A stretch of DNA of 53,741 bases from Candidatus Hydrogenedentota bacterium (lineage in GTDB: Bacteria; Hydrogenedentota; Hydrogenedentia; Hydrogenedentales; JAGMZX01): the NCBI GenBank assembly GCA_029556545.1, contig JAKQEQ010000121.1, forward strand, positions 1 through 53,741, given 5' to 3'. Below, piece after piece: positions 9,399-53,298 of the stretch. The translations under genes were made by a program, and so were the position numbers. Position 1 is the first letter of the stretch; each line of letters starts with the position of its first letter. The notes below the pieces were generated by a model. The model saw nothing but the letters and a program-made list of their open reading frames with translations, had not been told where the DNA came from and ran no database searches.

Positions 9399-9411
9399 CC
9401 TCCCTCCCCAC

Positions 9412-9490
9412 GTTCGCACTCGCACTCGCACTCGTACTCGTACTCGACAATGGATGGTATGGACGGTATGGACCAAGTGGACACACGATG
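9412..9490. repeat. Hexamer array plus ACGGTATGG repeat in a convergent spacer
   Basis: 9412-9448 is a tandem array of CGCACT/CGTACT hexamers. It is followed at about 9449-9490 by a TGGTATGGACGGTATGGAC repeat. Together they fill the gap between two convergent genes. The same pairing of array and ACGGTATGG recurs at 14459-14533. Confidence 0.7.
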
Positions 9491-14458: not shown

Positions 14459-14533
14459 CTCCCTCGTGCTCGTGCTCGTGCTCGTACTCGACATTCTATG
14501 TCACGGACGCCACGGACGGTATGGGCATGCGGA
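14459..14533. repeat. Hexamer array plus ACGGTATGG repeat
   Basis: 14459-14491 consists of CTCGTG/CTCGTA hexamers. 14499-14533 is a GCCACGGACGGTATGGGC segment similar to that at 9449-9490. It is in the spacer between the ferredoxin and lipoprotein genes. Confidence 0.7.
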
Positions 14534-17993: not shown

Positions 17994-18028
17994 GCGATTG
18001 CGATTATGACTACGAGCACGAGTGCGAA
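17994..18028. repeat. Hexamer array (GATTAT/GAGCAC/GAGTGC type)
   Basis: Degenerate 6-bp tandem units directly after the GGGAGAGGG palindrome, in the gap between thiolase and thiD. Confidence 0.6.
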
Positions 18029-18034
18029 CGGGGG

Positions 18035-30545: not shown

Positions 30546-31676
30546 GTGACTCTTTGCGCAGTTCTCGCCACATTCGCGTTCGGGGCCGCGGCACTGACCG
30601 GACAAGTCGTGGACGCCGCCGGGAATCCGGCGGCGGGCGCGCGTGTGTTTCTCGAACCCGGGCTCGAGGGGGAATTGATCGAGGGGCGGGTCGCCGCTGA
30701 CGGGCGCTTTTCCTTCGATGATGTCGCGCCCGGGGCGGTGGGGGTTATTGCGGCGGCGCCGGGATACGGGCACGCGGGGCGGCATTTCAATCTTGGCCTT
30801 GACGACGTGGTATCGCCCTTCACACTGCGCATGGCGCCTGCGGGCCGTATCGCGGGCCGAGTGCTTACGGAGAAAGGTAAGCCCATTGCGGGTGCGCGCG
30901 TTACGCGGGTCGCCCTGCTTGGCGACGAGAAGGTGGGCATTCCGCTGACGAAGTTGCGGACGTTCGGCATTGCCGAGCCCTGGAGTGATGCCGACGGTAG
31001 ATTCGCCGTCGAGCAGCTCCCGGAAGGCGGAACGGTCGCGTTGAAGGTAAACCATCCTGACTATGCGCAGGAGGGCACAACCGACGTGCGCGTGGGGGAC
31101 GAGAACGTGCGCGTCACGCTCACGCCCGGCGTTATCGCCGAGGGGAGCGTCCTCACGCGGCACGAGCAAATGGCCGTGGCTAACGTCGAGGTTGTCTTCC
31201 AGAATGCCGCGCCGCCGCACGACACCGTGATCGCACATACGGATGGTCGCGGCCGGTTTCAGGTTCGTCTGAAGCCCGGCGCTTATCTCGCGCGCGCGGC
31301 CGGCGGCGGCTACCGCAGCCCCGGCTTGATCCCGGTGGCAATCAGCACGGACGCGCCCCGGCAGGTCGTACGGCTTCAGGCCGTTCGCACGGGCCGCATC
31401 CGCGGGACGGTGAAGGATGCCGTATCCGGCGAGCCGGTGCGGGGCGTGCGCGTGCTCCTTGAATCGAGCGGTAACGTCGCCGCGCTCGTGCGTACCGGTG
31501 CGACGGGCGAGTTCGACTTCGAGGCCGCGGCGGGCCAGAACGTCGTGCGTATCGATGCCGCGCCGGGCTACGCGCCCCCCGCGATCAACACGGTGTCCGC
31601 CACCGTGACCGAAGGGCAAGAACTGACGCTGCCAGGTTTCTGGCTGGCGCCGTTGCCCGTCGAGAAAGGACCCTAG
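30546..31676 (+). CDS. Exported protein with carboxypeptidase-regulatory-like repeats
   Basis: A 376-residue protein that begins at GTG 30546 after AAGGAG. It has a short, weakly hydrophobic N-terminus (MTLCAVLATFAFGAAALTG), read as a signal peptide. The mature chain is built from about four beta-sandwich repeats of the CarboxypepD_reg/transthyretin-like type, each opening with a GxVxDxxGxPxxGARV pattern: GQVVDAAGNPAAGARV, GRVLTEKGKPIAGARV, a more divergent third, and GTVKDAVSGEPVRGVRV. Such domains bind no known catalytic metal and act as structural or binding modules. The next gene starts at the base after its stop and has the same kind of repeats, so the pair is co-transcribed and probably works together. 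A conserved binding partner is unknown. Confidence 0.82.
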   Translation: MTLCAVLATFAFGAAALTGQVVDAAGNPAAGARVFLEPGLEGELIEGRVAADGRFSFDDVAPGAVGVIAAAPGYGHAGRHFNLGLDDVVSPFTLRMAPAGRIAGRVLTEKGKPIAGARVTRVALLGDEKVGIPLTKLRTFGIAEPWSDADGRFAVEQLPEGGTVALKVNHPDYAQEGTTDVRVGDENVRVTLTPGVIAEGSVLTRHEQMAVANVEVVFQNAAPPHDTVIAHTDGRGRFQVRLKPGAYLARAAGGGYRSPGLIPVAISTDAPRQVVRLQAVRTGRIRGTVKDAVSGEPVRGVRVLLESSGNVAALVRTGATGEFDFEAAAGQNVVRIDAAPGYAPPAINTVSATVTEGQELTLPGFWLAPLPVEKGP

Positions 31677-33572
31677 GTGGCGCCCCGGTCGTCAGTTCGT
31701 GGTACACGCTTCAGCGTGCCTCTTGTTCGTAGTACACGCTTTAGCGTGCTCTTCCTGTGGGTATTCCTGCTTGCCATAACGAACGTTCCCGCCCTGGAGT
31801 TGCGCGGGCGCGTCGTCGATCCGGACCAGCACCCGGCGCCCGAGGCCGCCCTTTGGCTGGTTCAGGACCGCGTGGTCAGCGCAGCGAAGGCCGGCGCGGA
31901 CGGCACCTTCCGTTTCGAGGATGTTGCCGTGGGGCCGGTCGAGGTGGTGGCGCGGAAACAGGGCCTGGCGCTCGGCGGCTACACGGGGTTTGTGGTCGAC
32001 GACGGCGAGATTCTTGTCCAGCTTGCCCGGCCCGCGGAACTGCCGTTGCGCATTCTCGGCCCGGACTACGCGCCGCTGGCGGGGGCGCGCATTCGGCGCA
32101 TGATGATCAACAACCTGTTTCATGTTTCCGTCGAAGACCTTGTGGAGACGGGGTTCCCGCAGTTGCGCAGCGACGATGACGGCAACCTGGTTATCGCCGA
32201 ACTGCCTGAAGACGCTTATCTGCGCTTTACGGTGACGCACCTCGACTATGCCGACGCGAACGTGCCCTATCTGCCTATTTTGAAGTCGCGGCAGGACATC
32301 GTGCTTTCGCCCGGTATCGAGTTGCGCGGGCGCGTCACGGCGTCCGGCAAGGGCGTTGCCCGGGCGCGCGTGGCCGTGTTCGTCCAGTCGGACAAGGGCG
32401 ACGTGGGCATTACGGAGACGATCAGCGACGCGGAAGGCTTCTATCGGGTATGTCTTCCCGACGGCGAGTACCGCCTTGCCGTGCGGCATCCTGATTACGC
32501 CACGCCGCCGCCGCAACCCGTGCTGCTCGCCGACCCGCGCAAAGCGTACAGCGCCGATCTCACGCTTCTGCCGCCGCGCATTATCGAGGGGCGCATCATC
32601 GGGGAAGAAGATGTGTCGATGCCGGGGGTCCGGGTGGCGTATCGCGTCGGGAACATCGTATATGAGGAGACGTTGACGCAGCCGGACGGCGCGTTCCAGC
32701 TCAAGGTGGGGACACAGAAGGGCATGGTCCAGGTGTTGCCGCCGCCCGGTTTTCTGAGCGAAGACACGGCCACCATCACGTTTGATCTCGAGGACAAGGA
32801 GTACGCGCGTATTTCACCGATTCGCTTGATCCCTCTGCCGGAGATTCATGGGCGCGTCTCGGAGGCCGACGGCACGCCGGCGGCTCGCGCGTTGTTAAGT
32901 TCCCTGAATCTCGCGCCGCCGTTCTGGGCCATCGCGGACGAGGAGGGGCGCTTCGCCATTCGTCTCGCTGCGGTGCCGGGGACGGCGGATGTCCTGTTCC
33001 GCGCCGAGCACCGACTGCGCTTCTTGCGCGCCGACTTCGCGTTTGACCCGCGCAAGAAGGAAGCCGTCGAGGTGAAGTTGACGTCGTTCGACCCGGACCT
33101 CGCGGAGCGGCCCGCGGAACCGCCGCACAACAACCTTTCCCACCTCGTCGGCAAGAAAGCGCCTGAGTTCCGGTGCGACGCCTGGTTCAACGGCGTTCCG
33201 CTCACGCTTACCGACCTTGCGGGCAAGGTGATCGTGCTCACGTTCTGGGGCGGCTTCGACGACAGCCCAACCGCCATAAACCGCCTCGCCGAACTGTGCG
33301 CGCTCCACGATCTCCTGCGTGACATCGAGGACGTCGCCTTCGTCGCGGTGCACGACGCCAGTTCCGAGCCGGCGCAGGTCGAACAGTACATCGAACGGTT
33401 CCGGTTGCCGTTCCCCGTGGGCATCGACGCCGACCCCTTCGTCAGTTTCGTCAATTACGGCGTCAACTTCATCCCCCAGACCGTGGTTATCGACAAGAAA
33501 GGCGTCCTCCGCTATTACCGGGTCGAGGGGCGGCTGCTGGAACTCATCAAAGCCCTCCGCCGCCGAGGATAA
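31677..33572 (+). CDS. Exported repeat protein with C-terminal redoxin lacking CxxC
   Basis: A 631-residue protein starting with GTG 31677, the base after the previous stop, with AAAGGA 6 bases upstream. The first 26 codons include two tandem copies of an interspersed hairpin repeat (RGTRFSV and RSTRFSV), which give a basic n-region, followed by a hydrophobic core (VLFLWVFLLAITNVPA). Residues about 43-475 carry carboxypeptidase-regulatory-like repeats. Residues about 480-631 are an AhpC/TSA-TlpA-like thioredoxin fold (GKKAPEFRCDAWFNG, KVIVLTFWGGF, IPQTVVIDKKGVLRYYRVEG). The usual WCxxC is replaced by WGGF, so classical thiol exchange is unlikely; one Cys remains upstream (FRCDAW). Function is unknown; a binding or scaffold role is inferred. 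Confidence 0.85.
   Translation: MAPRSSVRGTRFSVPLVRSTRFSVLFLWVFLLAITNVPALELRGRVVDPDQHPAPEAALWLVQDRVVSAAKAGADGTFRFEDVAVGPVEVVARKQGLALGGYTGFVVDDGEILVQLARPAELPLRILGPDYAPLAGARIRRMMINNLFHVSVEDLVETGFPQLRSDDDGNLVIAELPEDAYLRFTVTHLDYADANVPYLPILKSRQDIVLSPGIELRGRVTASGKGVARARVAVFVQSDKGDVGITETISDAEGFYRVCLPDGEYRLAVRHPDYATPPPQPVLLADPRKAYSADLTLLPPRIIEGRIIGEEDVSMPGVRVAYRVGNIVYEETLTQPDGAFQLKVGTQKGMVQVLPPPGFLSEDTATITFDLEDKEYARISPIRLIPLPEIHGRVSEADGTPAARALLSSLNLAPPFWAIADEEGRFAIRLAAVPGTADVLFRAEHRLRFLRADFAFDPRKKEAVEVKLTSFDPDLAERPAEPPHNNLSHLVGKKAPEFRCDAWFNGVPLTLTDLAGKVIVLTFWGGFDDSPTAINRLAELCALHDLLRDIEDVAFVAVHDASSEPAQVEQYIERFRLPFPVGIDADPFVSFVNYGVNFIPQTVVIDKKGVLRYYRVEGRLLELIKALRRRG
31695..31753 (+). repeat. Interspersed hairpin repeat inside a coding region, two copies
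   Basis: Two direct copies with a 30-bp period: GTTCGTGGTACACGCTTCAG... (31695-31724) and GTTCGTAGTACACGCTTTAG... (31725-31753). Each has the inverted pair CACGCT/AGCGTG. The copies match the intergenic elements at 17062-17087, 33581-33631 and 39526-39582. Here the repeat lies downstream of the best start codon and is in frame (30 bp = 10 codons). Confidence 0.8.
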
Positions 33573-33580
33573 GCCTCGCC

Positions 33581-33631
33581 TGTAGTAAACGCTTCGGCGT
33601 GTCCTTAAGACAGGCTAAAGCCTGCACTACA
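33581..33631. repeat. Interspersed double-hairpin repeat, copy in convergent spacer
   Basis: TGTAGTAAACGCTTCGGCGTGT (33581-33602) followed by AGACAGGCTAAAGCCTG (33608-33624) and CACTACA. Its ends are inverted (TGTAGT/ACTACA). It lies between the convergent redoxin-like and zinc-ribbon genes and could act as a bidirectional terminator. Confidence 0.75.
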
Positions 33632-33638
33632 GACTCCC

Positions 33639-39525: not shown

Positions 39526-39582
39526 GTTCGCAGTACACGCCTTAGCGTGTCTTGAAGACAGCCCGAAGGCTGTGCTCCAAAC
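39526..39582. repeat. Interspersed double-hairpin repeat, copy upstream of panE-like gene
   Basis: GTTCGCAGTACACGCCTTAGCGTGTCTT followed by AGACAGCCCGAAGGCTGTGCT: two hairpins, ACACG-N7-CGTGT type and CAGCC/GGCTG. Same family as 17024-17087 and 33581-33631. Confidence 0.75.
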
Positions 39583-47625: not shown

Positions 47626-47663
47626 GGGTTGCGATTACGATTGCGATTACGATTACGAGTTGT
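47626..47663. repeat. Hexamer array (GATTAC/GATTGC type)
   Basis: Tandem units of TGCGAT/TACGAT/TACGAG in the divergent gap between the hydratase and PfpI genes. Same family as the array at 47816-47856. Confidence 0.7.
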
Positions 47664-47788
47664 CATGAAACCAGTGGTTTCTCCCGCAGAGGATGAAAAT
47701 GCGCGACGCATGTGGACTGCGCAAGCTTGCTTGCGCTCTTGTCCGGTAAGCTAGCTTGCTGGACGGGAAAGCTGGAGCAAGCTCCAGC
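47664..47788. repeat. Composite repeat block with hairpins
   Basis: Between the two hexamer arrays lies a mosaic: a CATGAAACCAGTGGTTTCTC segment (inverted AAACCA/TGGTTT), then GCGCAAGCTTGCTTGCGC (47720-47737) and GCTGGAGCAAGCTCCAGC (47771-47788), both perfect or near-perfect hairpins. The 47355-47956 gap otherwise shows no gene; it probably contains the promoters of both divergent neighbours, for example TGCTACACT (47523-47515, minus). Confidence 0.65.
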
Positions 47789-47815: not shown

Positions 47816-47856
47816 ACTACGATTACGATGACGATTACGAGCACGAGTACGAGTAG
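47816..47856. repeat. Hexamer array (GATTAC/GAGCAC/GAGTAC type)
   Basis: About six units of a degenerate TACGAN/CACGAG hexamer, 100 bp before the PfpI gene. Confidence 0.7.
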
Positions 47857-47956
47857 GAGGATGGGCGGGGTGGTTGACTCTGGGGGATGGGGCCATTAGA
47901 CTGGATTTCGCATCGAAAAGACGGAATCTGGTTCTCAATGAAGGGAGGATGAAGCC

Positions 47957-49686: not shown

Positions 49687-52600
49687 TTACCCCAAACCGG
49701 GGCAGAAGCCGTCCTCCGTGCTATTTGCCGGGCAGTAGTGGTAGCCGCCGGAGTTGAAGAACTGGATCAGGCGGAGCAATTCGGTGAGTTCGATCCGCCA
49801 GTCCGGGCCCGCGGGCGCGTAGTCGCTGCTGTGGGGGCAGCACGTGTGATTCGCGCCCGGTCCCGGCACGTAGTCATCCTCCGTGATCGAGGGGTCGTCC
49901 GCGCAGTGGAAGCCGCCGGAATTGAAGAACTGAATCACCCGCAGCAATTCGCCCAACTCGATGACGTTGTTTCTCGACTGGTCCGCGGTGTGGAATTCAC
50001 TGAAACACGGGTCGCCTTCGCCCTCGCCTTCACCTTCACCCTCGCCTTCACCCTCGCCTTCACCTTCACCTTCACCTTCACCTTCACCTTCACCTTCACC
50101 TTCTCCCTCTCCTTCTCCCTCTCCTTCTCCTTCGCCCTCGCCCTCGCCTTCGCCCTCGCCTTCACCTTCACCCTCGCCTTCACCCTCGCCTTCACCCTCG
50201 CCTTCACCCTCGCCTTCACCTTCACCTTCACCTTCACCTTCACCTTCTCCCTCTCCTTCTCCTTCGCCCTCGCCCTCGCCCTCGCCGCCTTCACCCTCGC
50301 CTTCACCTTCTCCTTCACCTTCACCTTCTCCTTCACCTTCTCCTTCGCCTTCGCCTTCGCCTTCGCCTTCACCTTCTCCTTCTCCTTCGCCTTCACCCTC
50401 GCCGACGCAGGGTTCGTCGCCTATGACGATGACGCCGCGCAGTTTGAGCAGGGCGATTTGGGCACAGGCGTCGCCGCTGAAGTCGATGCCGCTGACGATG
50501 AGCGTGTCTCCGTCGCCAAAATCGGTGTTATTGACCAACGGTCCGAGATCAGATATGGGATTGTGTGACAGGTTGACTTGCGCGAGTTGGCTCAACGGTT
50601 CGAGGGGGCTGATGTCCGCTACCTGATCCCACGAGAGATCGAGCGTCTCCAGTTGCGAGAGATGCGCCAGGGCGGCGATGTCCGTAATGCCCGGATTAAG
50701 GCTCAGATTGAGCGACACGAGCGACGTGAGGCACTGTATGCCGCCCACGCTCGCAATATTGCGGTTGCGCGCGTTCAGGGAATAGTAGTCGGCGACGTCT
50801 TCCGGCCAGATTGCGCCAGTGGGAATTCCGAGGTCCTGGCGGACGACGGCCTCGAGGTTCGGGTCGTCAAACACAATCGGGCTGCATGGAAGCTCGCCCT
50901 CGTCCTCCCCTTCGCCTTCGCCGACGCAGGGTTCGTCGCCTACGACGATGACGCCGCGCTGTTTTAGCAGAGCGATCTGGGCACAGGCGTCGCCGCTGAA
51001 GTCGATGCCGGTGATGGAGAGCGTGTCTCCGTCGCCAAAATTGGTGTTGTTGACCAACGGACTCAGATCAGATATGGGGTTGTACGAAAGGTTGAGTTGC
51101 GCGAGTTGGGTCAACGGTTCGAGGGGGCTGATGTTTGCGACCTGATCCCGCGAGAGATCGAGCGTCTCCAGCTGCGAGAGATGCGCCAGGGCGGCGATGT
51201 CCGTAATGCCCGGATTAAGGCTCAGGTTGAGCGACACGAGCGACGTGAGGCACTGTATGCCGCCCACGCTCGTAATATTGCGGTTGCGCGCATTCAGGGA
51301 GTAGTAGTCGGCGACGTCCTCCGGCCAGATAGCGCCAGTGGGAATTCCGAGGTCCTGGCGCACGACGGCCTCGATGTTCGGGTCGTCAAACACGATCGGG
51401 CTGCACGGAAGCTCGCCTTCACCTTCACCTTCGCCTTCGCCTTCACCTTCGCCTTCGCCTTCACCTTCGCCTTCACCTTCGCCTTCGCCTTCGCCTTCGC
51501 CTTCGCCTTCGCCTTCACCTTCGCCTTCACCCTCACCTTCGCCTGCGAGCACGAGTACTTGGACTACGTCGCTTTGGGTGGTAGATATCCCGCACGGATC
51601 ACTAACGTGTACGCGGTAGTACCTCGACCCGATGAAATCGAGGGGATCAAGGACCAGGCTGGCGGCGGTTGCGCCGGATATGGCGGCGAGACTTCCGGGT
51701 GCGGTTCCGGAATGCCACTGGTAAAGGTACGGCTCGCTCCAAACGTCGCCGACGTCAACGGTCAGAACAAACCGTCCCCCGTACTGCAGCGCGCCGGAAG
51801 TGTCCCCGACCGGCTGGGCGGCGATTAGGATTGGCGAGCGGTATCCGGCCCATTCGCGGTACAGAAACAGTTGGCGGTTGCGTGACGCGGCGACATAGGA
51901 ATTGTGGTTTGTCGTGCCGTCGCGGTTGAGGTCGCCGGACCCATTCAGCCGCGGGCGCCCGCACGTGAATTCCGAACAGGTGAAGTGATTAATGAAGGTT
52001 TGCAGGGTGGCGCAAATCCACTCGTTGTCGATGTGCACGTGCGCGCTGATCCCGCTGTAGTTGATGTCCTCATCGATATCGGCTATCTGGCCGCACGGGA
52101 TGGTGTAGCCCTTGACGGCGTTGTCGCCGAGCGGAACTTCCATTTCTGGTTGTTTCGCGGCAGTACCGGCTTTCAGTTCGTTCAGCAGGCGCTGAACCAT
52201 CAATGGAAGATAGCCGATGATGGATTGCGCGACGAGTCCCTGGAAATAGTCTATGCCGCTGTAGTCGCCCAAGGTCATGTAACCCGCCCCGAGATCGCGC
52301 AGCGCATCGTCCAGGTCCGGATGCGCGTCATCAAGCAGGTTGCCGTCGCCCCACAGGCTGTCCACGTCGAAACACTGATCGCCGATGATAGTATTGATAC
52401 AGATATTGGTCTTGTTGGTTGAGATGTAAATCGTCTGGTCCGGGACAATGATCCCGCCGCCGCTGATATCCACACGCAGGTTCTGGAGCTCCAGGGTCTG
52501 TATGAGAGACCGGTTCGAGACAAAAGCGTTGCGGAGAGTCGCCACGTCGCCTGCATTCAGCGCGGCAAGACACACCTGTGTATCCAGGACGGCCTGGAGA

Positions 52601-53298
52601 AGCGCCAAATGATCATCGTCGTCGATGCCGTTGCCGTCGTTGTCCACGTTGGTGAACCCCGGCCCCACCTGGCCCGGAACCCGCTTCCATATCTGGTCGC
52701 CGCCGGACCAGTGACCCTCCATCACTACGTCCAGCACATCGTCCAATCCTTGCAGTATGGCGTCGAAATCCACAGGCGCGGACGATGCGAGCAATACGAA
52801 GTAATTGCTGCCGGCGCCAGCCGCGCCCGCCGCCATGTTGCCGCCGAGCACGACCGACCCGGCTTGAAACTGCTTCGCGTAGATATTCGCAGTGCCCTGG
52901 CTCGCGTCCGACACGCCGATTGCGTCGCCGGTAGCGGCGTATTGGGCCATCCAGTTTGGCCGAGAAGTCGCGCGCGAATCGTAGGCGATGTACACGACGG
53001 CGGGAACATCGATATTGAAGGTGATCCACGTCTCGCTGGTCACGTTCTTATCGTCATTCTCCGTTTGGATGCCGAGGGCGCCTTCGAGATAGGAGGGCAT
53101 CGAGGTAATGGTGAACGATCGGTCGGAGTAGATCTGGCTTCCGGTTGTGTAGTGGGTGGTCGCATACCGGTTGAGACTGCTTACCGTCAGTGCCGGGCTC
53201 TCGCTCGCCGGTAGCAGGCAGGCAAACACCGCACACAAGACCAGTGAACACCGCGCCACACCGCGCCCGGGATGCACAAGTCCACAACACTTCTTCAT
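49687..53298 (-). CDS. Large exported modular protein with (GE)n linkers, two LRR blocks and tandem dockerin/EF-hand-like C-terminus
   Basis: A 1203-residue protein with a Sec signal peptide (about 1-37, with GGGAGA before ATG 53298). Residues about 38-150 form a beta-rich domain (VVYIAYDSRATSRPNWM) seen in many secreted proteins of this kind of bacterium. Residues about 500-580 resemble an Ig-like domain (YQWHSGTAPGSLAAISG). Then come a (Gly-Glu)n linker (about 585-629), an internalin/SDS22-like LRR block (630-792), a short acidic linker, a second nearly identical LRR block (803-965), a long (GE)n linker of about 130 residues (966-1097), and a C-terminal domain. That domain has two copies of an ELLRVIQFFNSGG-type motif preceded by Asp/Asn-rich loops (DQSRNNVIEL, GPDWRIEL). 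Surface attachment or assembly is inferred. Confidence 0.88.
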   Translation of the reverse strand: MKKCCGLVHPGRGVARCSLVLCAVFACLLPASESPALTVSSLNRYATTHYTTGSQIYSDRSFTITSMPSYLEGALGIQTENDDKNVTSETWITFNIDVPAVVYIAYDSRATSRPNWMAQYAATGDAIGVSDASQGTANIYAKQFQAGSVVLGGNMAAGAAGAGSNYFVLLASSAPVDFDAILQGLDDVLDVVMEGHWSGGDQIWKRVPGQVGPGFTNVDNDGNGIDDDDHLALLQAVLDTQVCLAALNAGDVATLRNAFVSNRSLIQTLELQNLRVDISGGGIIVPDQTIYISTNKTNICINTIIGDQCFDVDSLWGDGNLLDDAHPDLDDALRDLGAGYMTLGDYSGIDYFQGLVAQSIIGYLPLMVQRLLNELKAGTAAKQPEMEVPLGDNAVKGYTIPCGQIADIDEDINYSGISAHVHIDNEWICATLQTFINHFTCSEFTCGRPRLNGSGDLNRDGTTNHNSYVAASRNRQLFLYREWAGYRSPILIAAQPVGDTSGALQYGGRFVLTVDVGDVWSEPYLYQWHSGTAPGSLAAISGATAASLVLDPLDFIGSRYYRVHVSDPCGISTTQSDVVQVLVLAGEGEGEGEGEGEGEGEGEGEGEGEGEGEGEGEGEGEGEGEGEGELPCSPIVFDDPNIEAVVRQDLGIPTGAIWPEDVADYYSLNARNRNITSVGGIQCLTSLVSLNLSLNPGITDIAALAHLSQLETLDLSRDQVANISPLEPLTQLAQLNLSYNPISDLSPLVNNTNFGDGDTLSITGIDFSGDACAQIALLKQRGVIVVGDEPCVGEGEGEDEGELPCSPIVFDDPNLEAVVRQDLGIPTGAIWPEDVADYYSLNARNRNIASVGGIQCLTSLVSLNLSLNPGITDIAALAHLSQLETLDLSWDQVADISPLEPLSQLAQVNLSHNPISDLGPLVNNTDFGDGDTLIVSGIDFSGDACAQIALLKLRGVIVIGDEPCVGEGEGEGEGEGEGEGEGEGEGEGEGEGEGEGEGEGEGEGGEGEGEGEGEGEGEGEGEGEGEGEGEGEGEGEGEGEGEGEGEGEGEGEGEGEGEGEGEGEGEGEGEGEGEGEGEGEGEGEGEGEGEGEGEGDPCFSEFHTADQSRNNVIELGELLRVIQFFNSGGFHCADDPSITEDDYVPGPGANHTCCPHSSDYAPAGPDWRIELTELLRLIQFFNSGGYHYCPANSTEDGFCPGLG
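50008..50403 (-). repeat. Long hexanucleotide tract encoding (Gly-Glu)n
   Basis: About 395 bp of tandem GAGGGC/GAAGGT/GAAGGC hexamers (minus strand), encoding about 130 residues of GE. Codons for Gly and Glu vary, so the tract is not a perfect repeat. Confidence 0.9.
50402..51412 (-). repeat. Tandem duplication of the LRR-coding block
   Basis: Two copies of about 500 bp (roughly 50404-50905 and 50906-51412) encode blocks that both begin LPCSPIVFDDPN and end GDEPCVGEGEGE, with only a few differences (for example IEAVV versus LEAVV, RDQVANISP versus WDQVADISP). They are separated by a short GE-rich linker, which suggests that duplication happened through the repetitive flanks. Confidence 0.88.
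51411..51545 (-). repeat. Shorter hexanucleotide tract encoding (Gly-Glu)n
   Basis: About 135 bp of GAAGGC/GAAGGT hexamers, encoding about 45 residues between the Ig-like region and the first LRR block. Confidence 0.88.

Follow-up and report, generated by a model that had tools for sequence, protein, structure and literature searches.

In this study, we analyzed a 53,741-nucleotide stretch of DNA from a Candidatus Hydrogenedentota bacterium (referred to below as the window) and propose, with a probability of about 0.82, that two direct GTAG-type REP monomers were inserted, within the frame, after a pre-existing start codon, where they extend the n-region of a signal peptide and are tolerated. 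We observed a repeat family with covarying stems, a transposase gene linked to the same repeats, an empty site in the nearest relative, and a conserved start region; judged from the sequence, the repeats are probably translated and the longer signal peptide probably works.

Two REP monomers at the start of the host gene

The reading frame that begins at GTG 31677 continues without interruption to 33572, and its 631-aa product has the N-terminus VAPRSSVRGTRFSVPLVRSTRFSVLFLWVFLLAITNVPALELRG. Within it, a 24-bp hairpin unit, GTTCGTRGTACACGCTTYAGCGTG, is present in two direct copies separated by the 6-bp spacer CCTCTT; both copies share the frame of GTG 31677, and the first begins 18 nt after it. 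A GT(A/G)G head lies beside a short palindrome in each unit (GTGG in unit 1 and GTAG in unit 2). The repeat 23-mer matched the window at four places, compared to none in 100 shuffles, and the two in-frame hairpin repeats are present as the first-pass annotation had described them, except that the 30 bp it gave as the length of the tandem copies is their period, the conserved unit being 24 bp plus the spacer. The relevant features of the window are as follows.

31677..33572, plus strand: host gene, 631-aa exported protein, GTG start, CarboxypepD_reg repeats and a C-terminal AhpC-TSA/Redoxin domain
31663..31670, plus strand: ribosome-binding site AGAAAGGA, 6 nt 5' of GTG 31677, within the end of the upstream gene
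31695..31718, plus strand: REP monomer 1, GTTCGTGGTACACGCTTCAGCGTG, encoding VRGTRFSV
31725..31748, plus strand: REP monomer 2, GTTCGTAGTACACGCTTTAGCGTG, encoding VRSTRFSV; its final three bases form the alternative start GTG 31746
31749..31793, plus strand: hydrophobic core of the signal peptide, LFLWVFLLAI, followed by the c-region as far as the probable cleavage site VPA/LEL, from reading and orthologue position
33580..33634, no strand assigned: REP inverted dimer (REPIN-like), just 3' of the host-gene stop codon
17020..17087, minus strand: intergenic same-family REP whose inverted partner is degenerate
39526..39580, plus strand: degenerate inverted dimer of same-family REPs, flanked by divergent genes

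The repeat family and its distribution

Across the draft genome (6.1 Mb), 38 places matched the 23-mer at up to 3 mismatches, and the generalized pattern GTAGTNCNNGCTTNAGCNNG was present in 50 copies (reversed control, 0). The consensus is GTTYGTAGTNC..GCTTYAGC. The stem arms were complementary in 43 of 51 cases, compared to a mean of 18.9 and a maximum of 30 in 2,000 shuffles, and four covarying stem types were found (CAC/GTG, CAG/CTG, CAA/TTG, and CGC/GCG). Inverted dimers were frequent, and many copies represent one half of such a dimer, for example, GTTTGTAGTTCAGGCTTCAGCCTGTCTTGAAGACAGCCTGAAGGCTGCACTACAAAC. The context of the copies was judged on stretches of about 3 kb with a simple codon-model gene caller; 36 of the 50 lay wholly outside called genes, even though the window is 91% called coding, and several provided the stop codon of a neighboring gene. 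The earlier description of the repeat as otherwise intergenic therefore applies to most copies, but not to these stop codons or to an in-frame doublet in dprA that is discussed below. By its anatomy, namely, the head, the covarying palindrome, the dispersed copies, the inverted dimers, and a flanked RAYT-like gene, the window repeat is a GTAG-type REP.

The RAYT-like gene (G000:C116:53188-53784, where G000 is the genome of the window) encodes a 199-aa protein in which the HUH motif NHYH and the tyrosine motif MNYVQHN were recognized by reading. It was found only via REP_Tyr_transpos (NF047646), at 70.9 bits (E = 1e-19), and falls below the Pfam cut-off; it is named RAYT-like only, because the curated cut-off of NF047646 is 80 bits. 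Window-family REPs with the same CACGCT...AGCGTG stem lie within about 70 bp of the gene on each side, which bears out the earlier view that the repeat is of a mobile type. Linkage and precedent suggest that this protein moves the window-family REPs, which multiply in the genome, presumably mobilized as single-stranded hairpins, with the single-stranded sequence GTTCGTAGTACACGCTTCAGCGTG as the presumed target. Five other RAYT-like genes, which match Y1_Tnp (Pfam), were considered as the source of the cognate transposase and rejected, since none has the window REP family beside it; four of them carry other hairpins nearby, and at the fifth (C101) none paired up.

The exact REP pattern was absent from 56 of the 60 genomes searched. 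G001, a genome of the same genus, has only four copies, and no match to the RAYT-like protein was found in it; we therefore conclude that the family expanded in the lineage of the window genome. Searches with the REPIN consensus gave no match in plasmids, nor in viral contigs when it was used as an exact pattern.

The data suggest that several REP systems coexist in this genome. RAYT-like genes L130, L131, L133, and L134 (G000:C57, C25, C9, and C36) are flanked on each side by distinct hairpins of their own, such as GTAGACGAGGCTTCCAGCCTCGT at L133:847 and 1555. A second, larger REP-like family, GTGGCATGGGCATCTTGCCCAYG, is present in the window at 1529-1555 and 1583-1609 and occurs at 124 places in the genome at up to 2 mismatches (reversed control, 0).

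An empty site in a relative and the start of the host gene

A homologue of the host protein is encoded in all 60 genomes searched; a contig scan with the host protein gave only one distant match, in Anaerolineales. In G001, whose host protein is 75% identical, the junction with the upstream gene reads GAAAGGGCCATAA-GTG-ACG-CCC-CGG, compared to GAAAGGACCCTAG-GTG-GCG-CCC-CGG here. The TAA/TAG-GTG-x-CGCCCC junction and the AAAGG 5' of it are conserved in G001, which then continues with an ordinary signal peptide and no repeat. Since G001 keeps the junction and the first codons without the repeat, the start at 31677 probably predates the insertion, and the orthologue comparison supports the earlier placement of the repeat inside the frame. 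When the flanks here are joined without the 60 bp, they give VAPRSSLWVFLLAITNVPALELRG, an ordinary signal peptide. Among 30 orthologue loci read (one of them the window itself), the signal peptides end alike, with A-x-A before L-x-[LV]-x-G, the position that matches VPA/LEL, and the repeat peptide was found in none of the other N-termini. The exact borders of the insert are uncertain (the prediction is 20 extra codons, whereas the net difference from G001 is 15), because the same-genus comparison comprises one genome and the signal peptides align poorly.

We postulate that an insert of about 60 bp (20 codons), open in frame, entered after the conserved start region (GTG-x-CCC-CGG) and ahead of the hydrophobic core. 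The n-region would thereby have grown from about 10 residues, the number ahead of the core in relatives, to a predicted 24 residues with five arginines; Sec targeting was probably kept, since the insert is open in frame and sits between the start region and the core, and the insert would persist because the n-region of a signal peptide tolerates extra basic residues. In 16 other signal peptides that were compared, 2 to 15 residues (typically 8 to 10), with 1 to 3 K/R, lie ahead of the core. The first-pass annotation had ascribed the positive charge to the repeats, and four of the arginines do come from them, but R4 precedes them.

That annotation had also given GTG 31677 a good ribosome site beside a stop codon. 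The upstream gene's stop codon does directly abut the GTG, AAGGA lies 6 nt 5' of it, and the site in G001 has the same position and a near-identical sequence; however, the anti-SD duplex (-5.3 kcal/mol) is ordinary, being equaled in strength at 30% of random positions, and by itself is no proof of that start. The case for 31677 therefore rests on the conserved junction rather than on the ribosome site.

An alternative, which we regard as unlikely, is that the repeats form a non-coding 5' leader, with the start at GTG 31746, and that any activity of the REPs is that of an mRNA or DNA element lying between the two genes. Di Nocera et al. (PMC3733652) hold that most N-terminal REPs in P. putida, C. 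koseri, and S. maltophilia may be non-coding. Furthermore, our codon model favors 31746, to which it trims the start because codon usage in the repeat is poor; such usage is expected for recently inserted DNA but equally for non-coding DNA. Against this reading, only two downstream starts in this frame retain the hydrophobic core, GTG 31716 and GTG 31746, and each is the final codon of its repeat. The former would still take in the second repeat, and the latter has no ribosome site (anti-SD pairing of -0.3 kcal/mol, at least equaled at 97% of random positions) and would yield a product, MLFLWVFLLAITNVPA, without a basic residue ahead of the core, whereas all 16 other signal peptides have one or more. 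Finally, the repeat-free relative has kept the stop-GTG junction of 31677 together with the first codons.

The upstream gene (30546-31676; 376 aa) is without the C-terminal ~290 codons that are found in G001, where the open frame has 674 codons: identity is 66% over residues 1 to 371, after which the protein skips to the last residues, KGP-stop. This in-frame deletion ends about 40 bp 5' of the REP insertion, and short homology (around CGCC-TTGC) is present at its breakpoints.

A second coding doublet and the question of function

Another REP doublet lies in frame in dprA (G000:C27:7882-7931, which is L117:1883-1932), a gene identified by its DprA core (262 bits) and winged helix (44 bits). 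It sits in the variable linker that joins the two domains and encodes HAEACTTNLHAEARTTNL. The linkers of relatives are too variable in length and sequence, and therefore no clean empty site could be drawn. DprA takes part in DNA uptake and recombination, which fits published observations that intragenic REPs favor DNA repair genes. This doublet is read on the strand opposite to that of the window case, in another frame and as another peptide; no repeat peptide is thus conserved, which argues for tolerance rather than selection of a peptide. Its spacing is 27 bp, compared to 30 bp in the host gene and 26, 26, 28, 31, 32, and 32 bp in intergenic direct doublets. Spacing in multiples of three was therefore found in 2/2 coding and 0/6 tabulated intergenic cases (Fisher P = 0.036, from small numbers). 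It is nevertheless improbable that this lineage repeatedly gains in-frame coding sequence from REP doublets, kept only at multiple-of-three spacing, with the insert here at the same time altering export through its long, arginine-rich n-region.

To judge from the sequence, the REPs in the host gene are most likely neutral passengers at a tolerant site, with the frame and export kept. It is less probable still than the leader that the arginine-rich insert or the hairpins tune export or translation and have been retained by selection, as was implied when the repeat was first said to have been adopted as coding sequence and its hairpins to affect translation. Four arginines were added directly ahead of the hydrophobic core and, in a rough fold, the unpaired probability of the start region was 0.52 with the repeats versus 0.22 with the flanks joined. 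However, the repeat-free start region of G001 is more open still (0.69), so that accessibility follows no consistent direction, and the 121-nt start region folds no more stably than its shuffles (z = -0.29); a role for an RNA hairpin has no support. Nor was adoption for a function supported: the relative and other orthologues have normal signal peptides with 1 to 3 positive charges in the absence of the repeat, the original R4 remains, the dprA doublet encodes a different peptide, and the insert is present in one genome only. A chance palindrome or an assembly artifact, in favor of which there is nothing beyond the draft status of the genome (195 contigs), is refuted by the copy number (50 in the genome) and covariation, together with the lack of shuffle matches and the mid-contig site with its intact 631-aa frame.

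Relationship to known systems

The closest parallel is provided by the GTAG REPs of Di Nocera et al. (2013; PMC3733652), which are mostly intergenic and occur as singlets, groups, and inverted dimers. Some provide stop codons, and others lie in frame in genes, often those for DNA repair or recombination, where they encode 20 to 30 aa, in some cases N-terminal; those authors cautioned that N-terminal REPs may reflect start-codon errors. The window family shares with them the GTAG head, the short palindrome, the occurrence as singlets, groups, and inverted dimers, the mostly intergenic location, and the occasional stop-codon and in-frame cases. Unlike theirs, it belongs to a different lineage, its sequence family was not found among those that they described, and its insert separates a conserved start from the core of a signal peptide, where a relative with an empty site backs the upstream start. 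In-frame REPs, including N-terminal ones and ones in DNA repair genes, have therefore already been published, and the window case is a new example; it is better supported than most because a repeat-free relative has the conserved start. It provides a clean filled/empty-site pair for an N-terminal REP, whereas published ones are usually suspected of start-codon misannotation.

The arrangement is also reminiscent of the RAYT/REP units, or REPtrons, of Nunvar et al. (2010; PMC2817692), with their GT(A/G)G head, covarying palindrome, GCTTYAGC center, and repeat-flanked transposase gene; the center of the Haemophilus influenzae REP GTAGGGTGGGCTTcAGCCCACC is of the same kind. The window REP differs in that two bases (T and N) separate the GTAG head from the stem, and the transposase of its genome falls below the NCBIfam cut-off. 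Likewise, the Rickettsia palindromic elements (RPEs; reviewed in PMC10969869) are small, palindromic, and read in frame inside unrelated genes, and RPE-4 and RPE-6 are counted by Di Nocera et al. (PMC3733652) among their REPs. RPEs, however, are about 150 bp long with a conserved peptide, whereas the units here are 24 bp, are read in two frames, and have no conserved peptide. An RPE identity for the window insert was rejected, since VRxTRFSV here and the dprA peptide on the other strand differ in both frame and sequence. Small RAYT-type repeats can thus lengthen proteins at tolerant places, such as the n-region of a signal peptide or the dprA linker.

Other repeats in the window

The window also contains degenerate hexamer arrays (CGAGTA, CGAGCA, CGATTA, and the like) on both strands, mostly intergenic, at 9407-9446, 14462-14494, 17995-18034, 47626-47670, and 47820-47864. 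In addition, long tandem arrays of CCTTCx/CCCTCx-type units are present at 49982-50452 and 51359-51532, inside a large minus-strand open reading frame (49687-53298).
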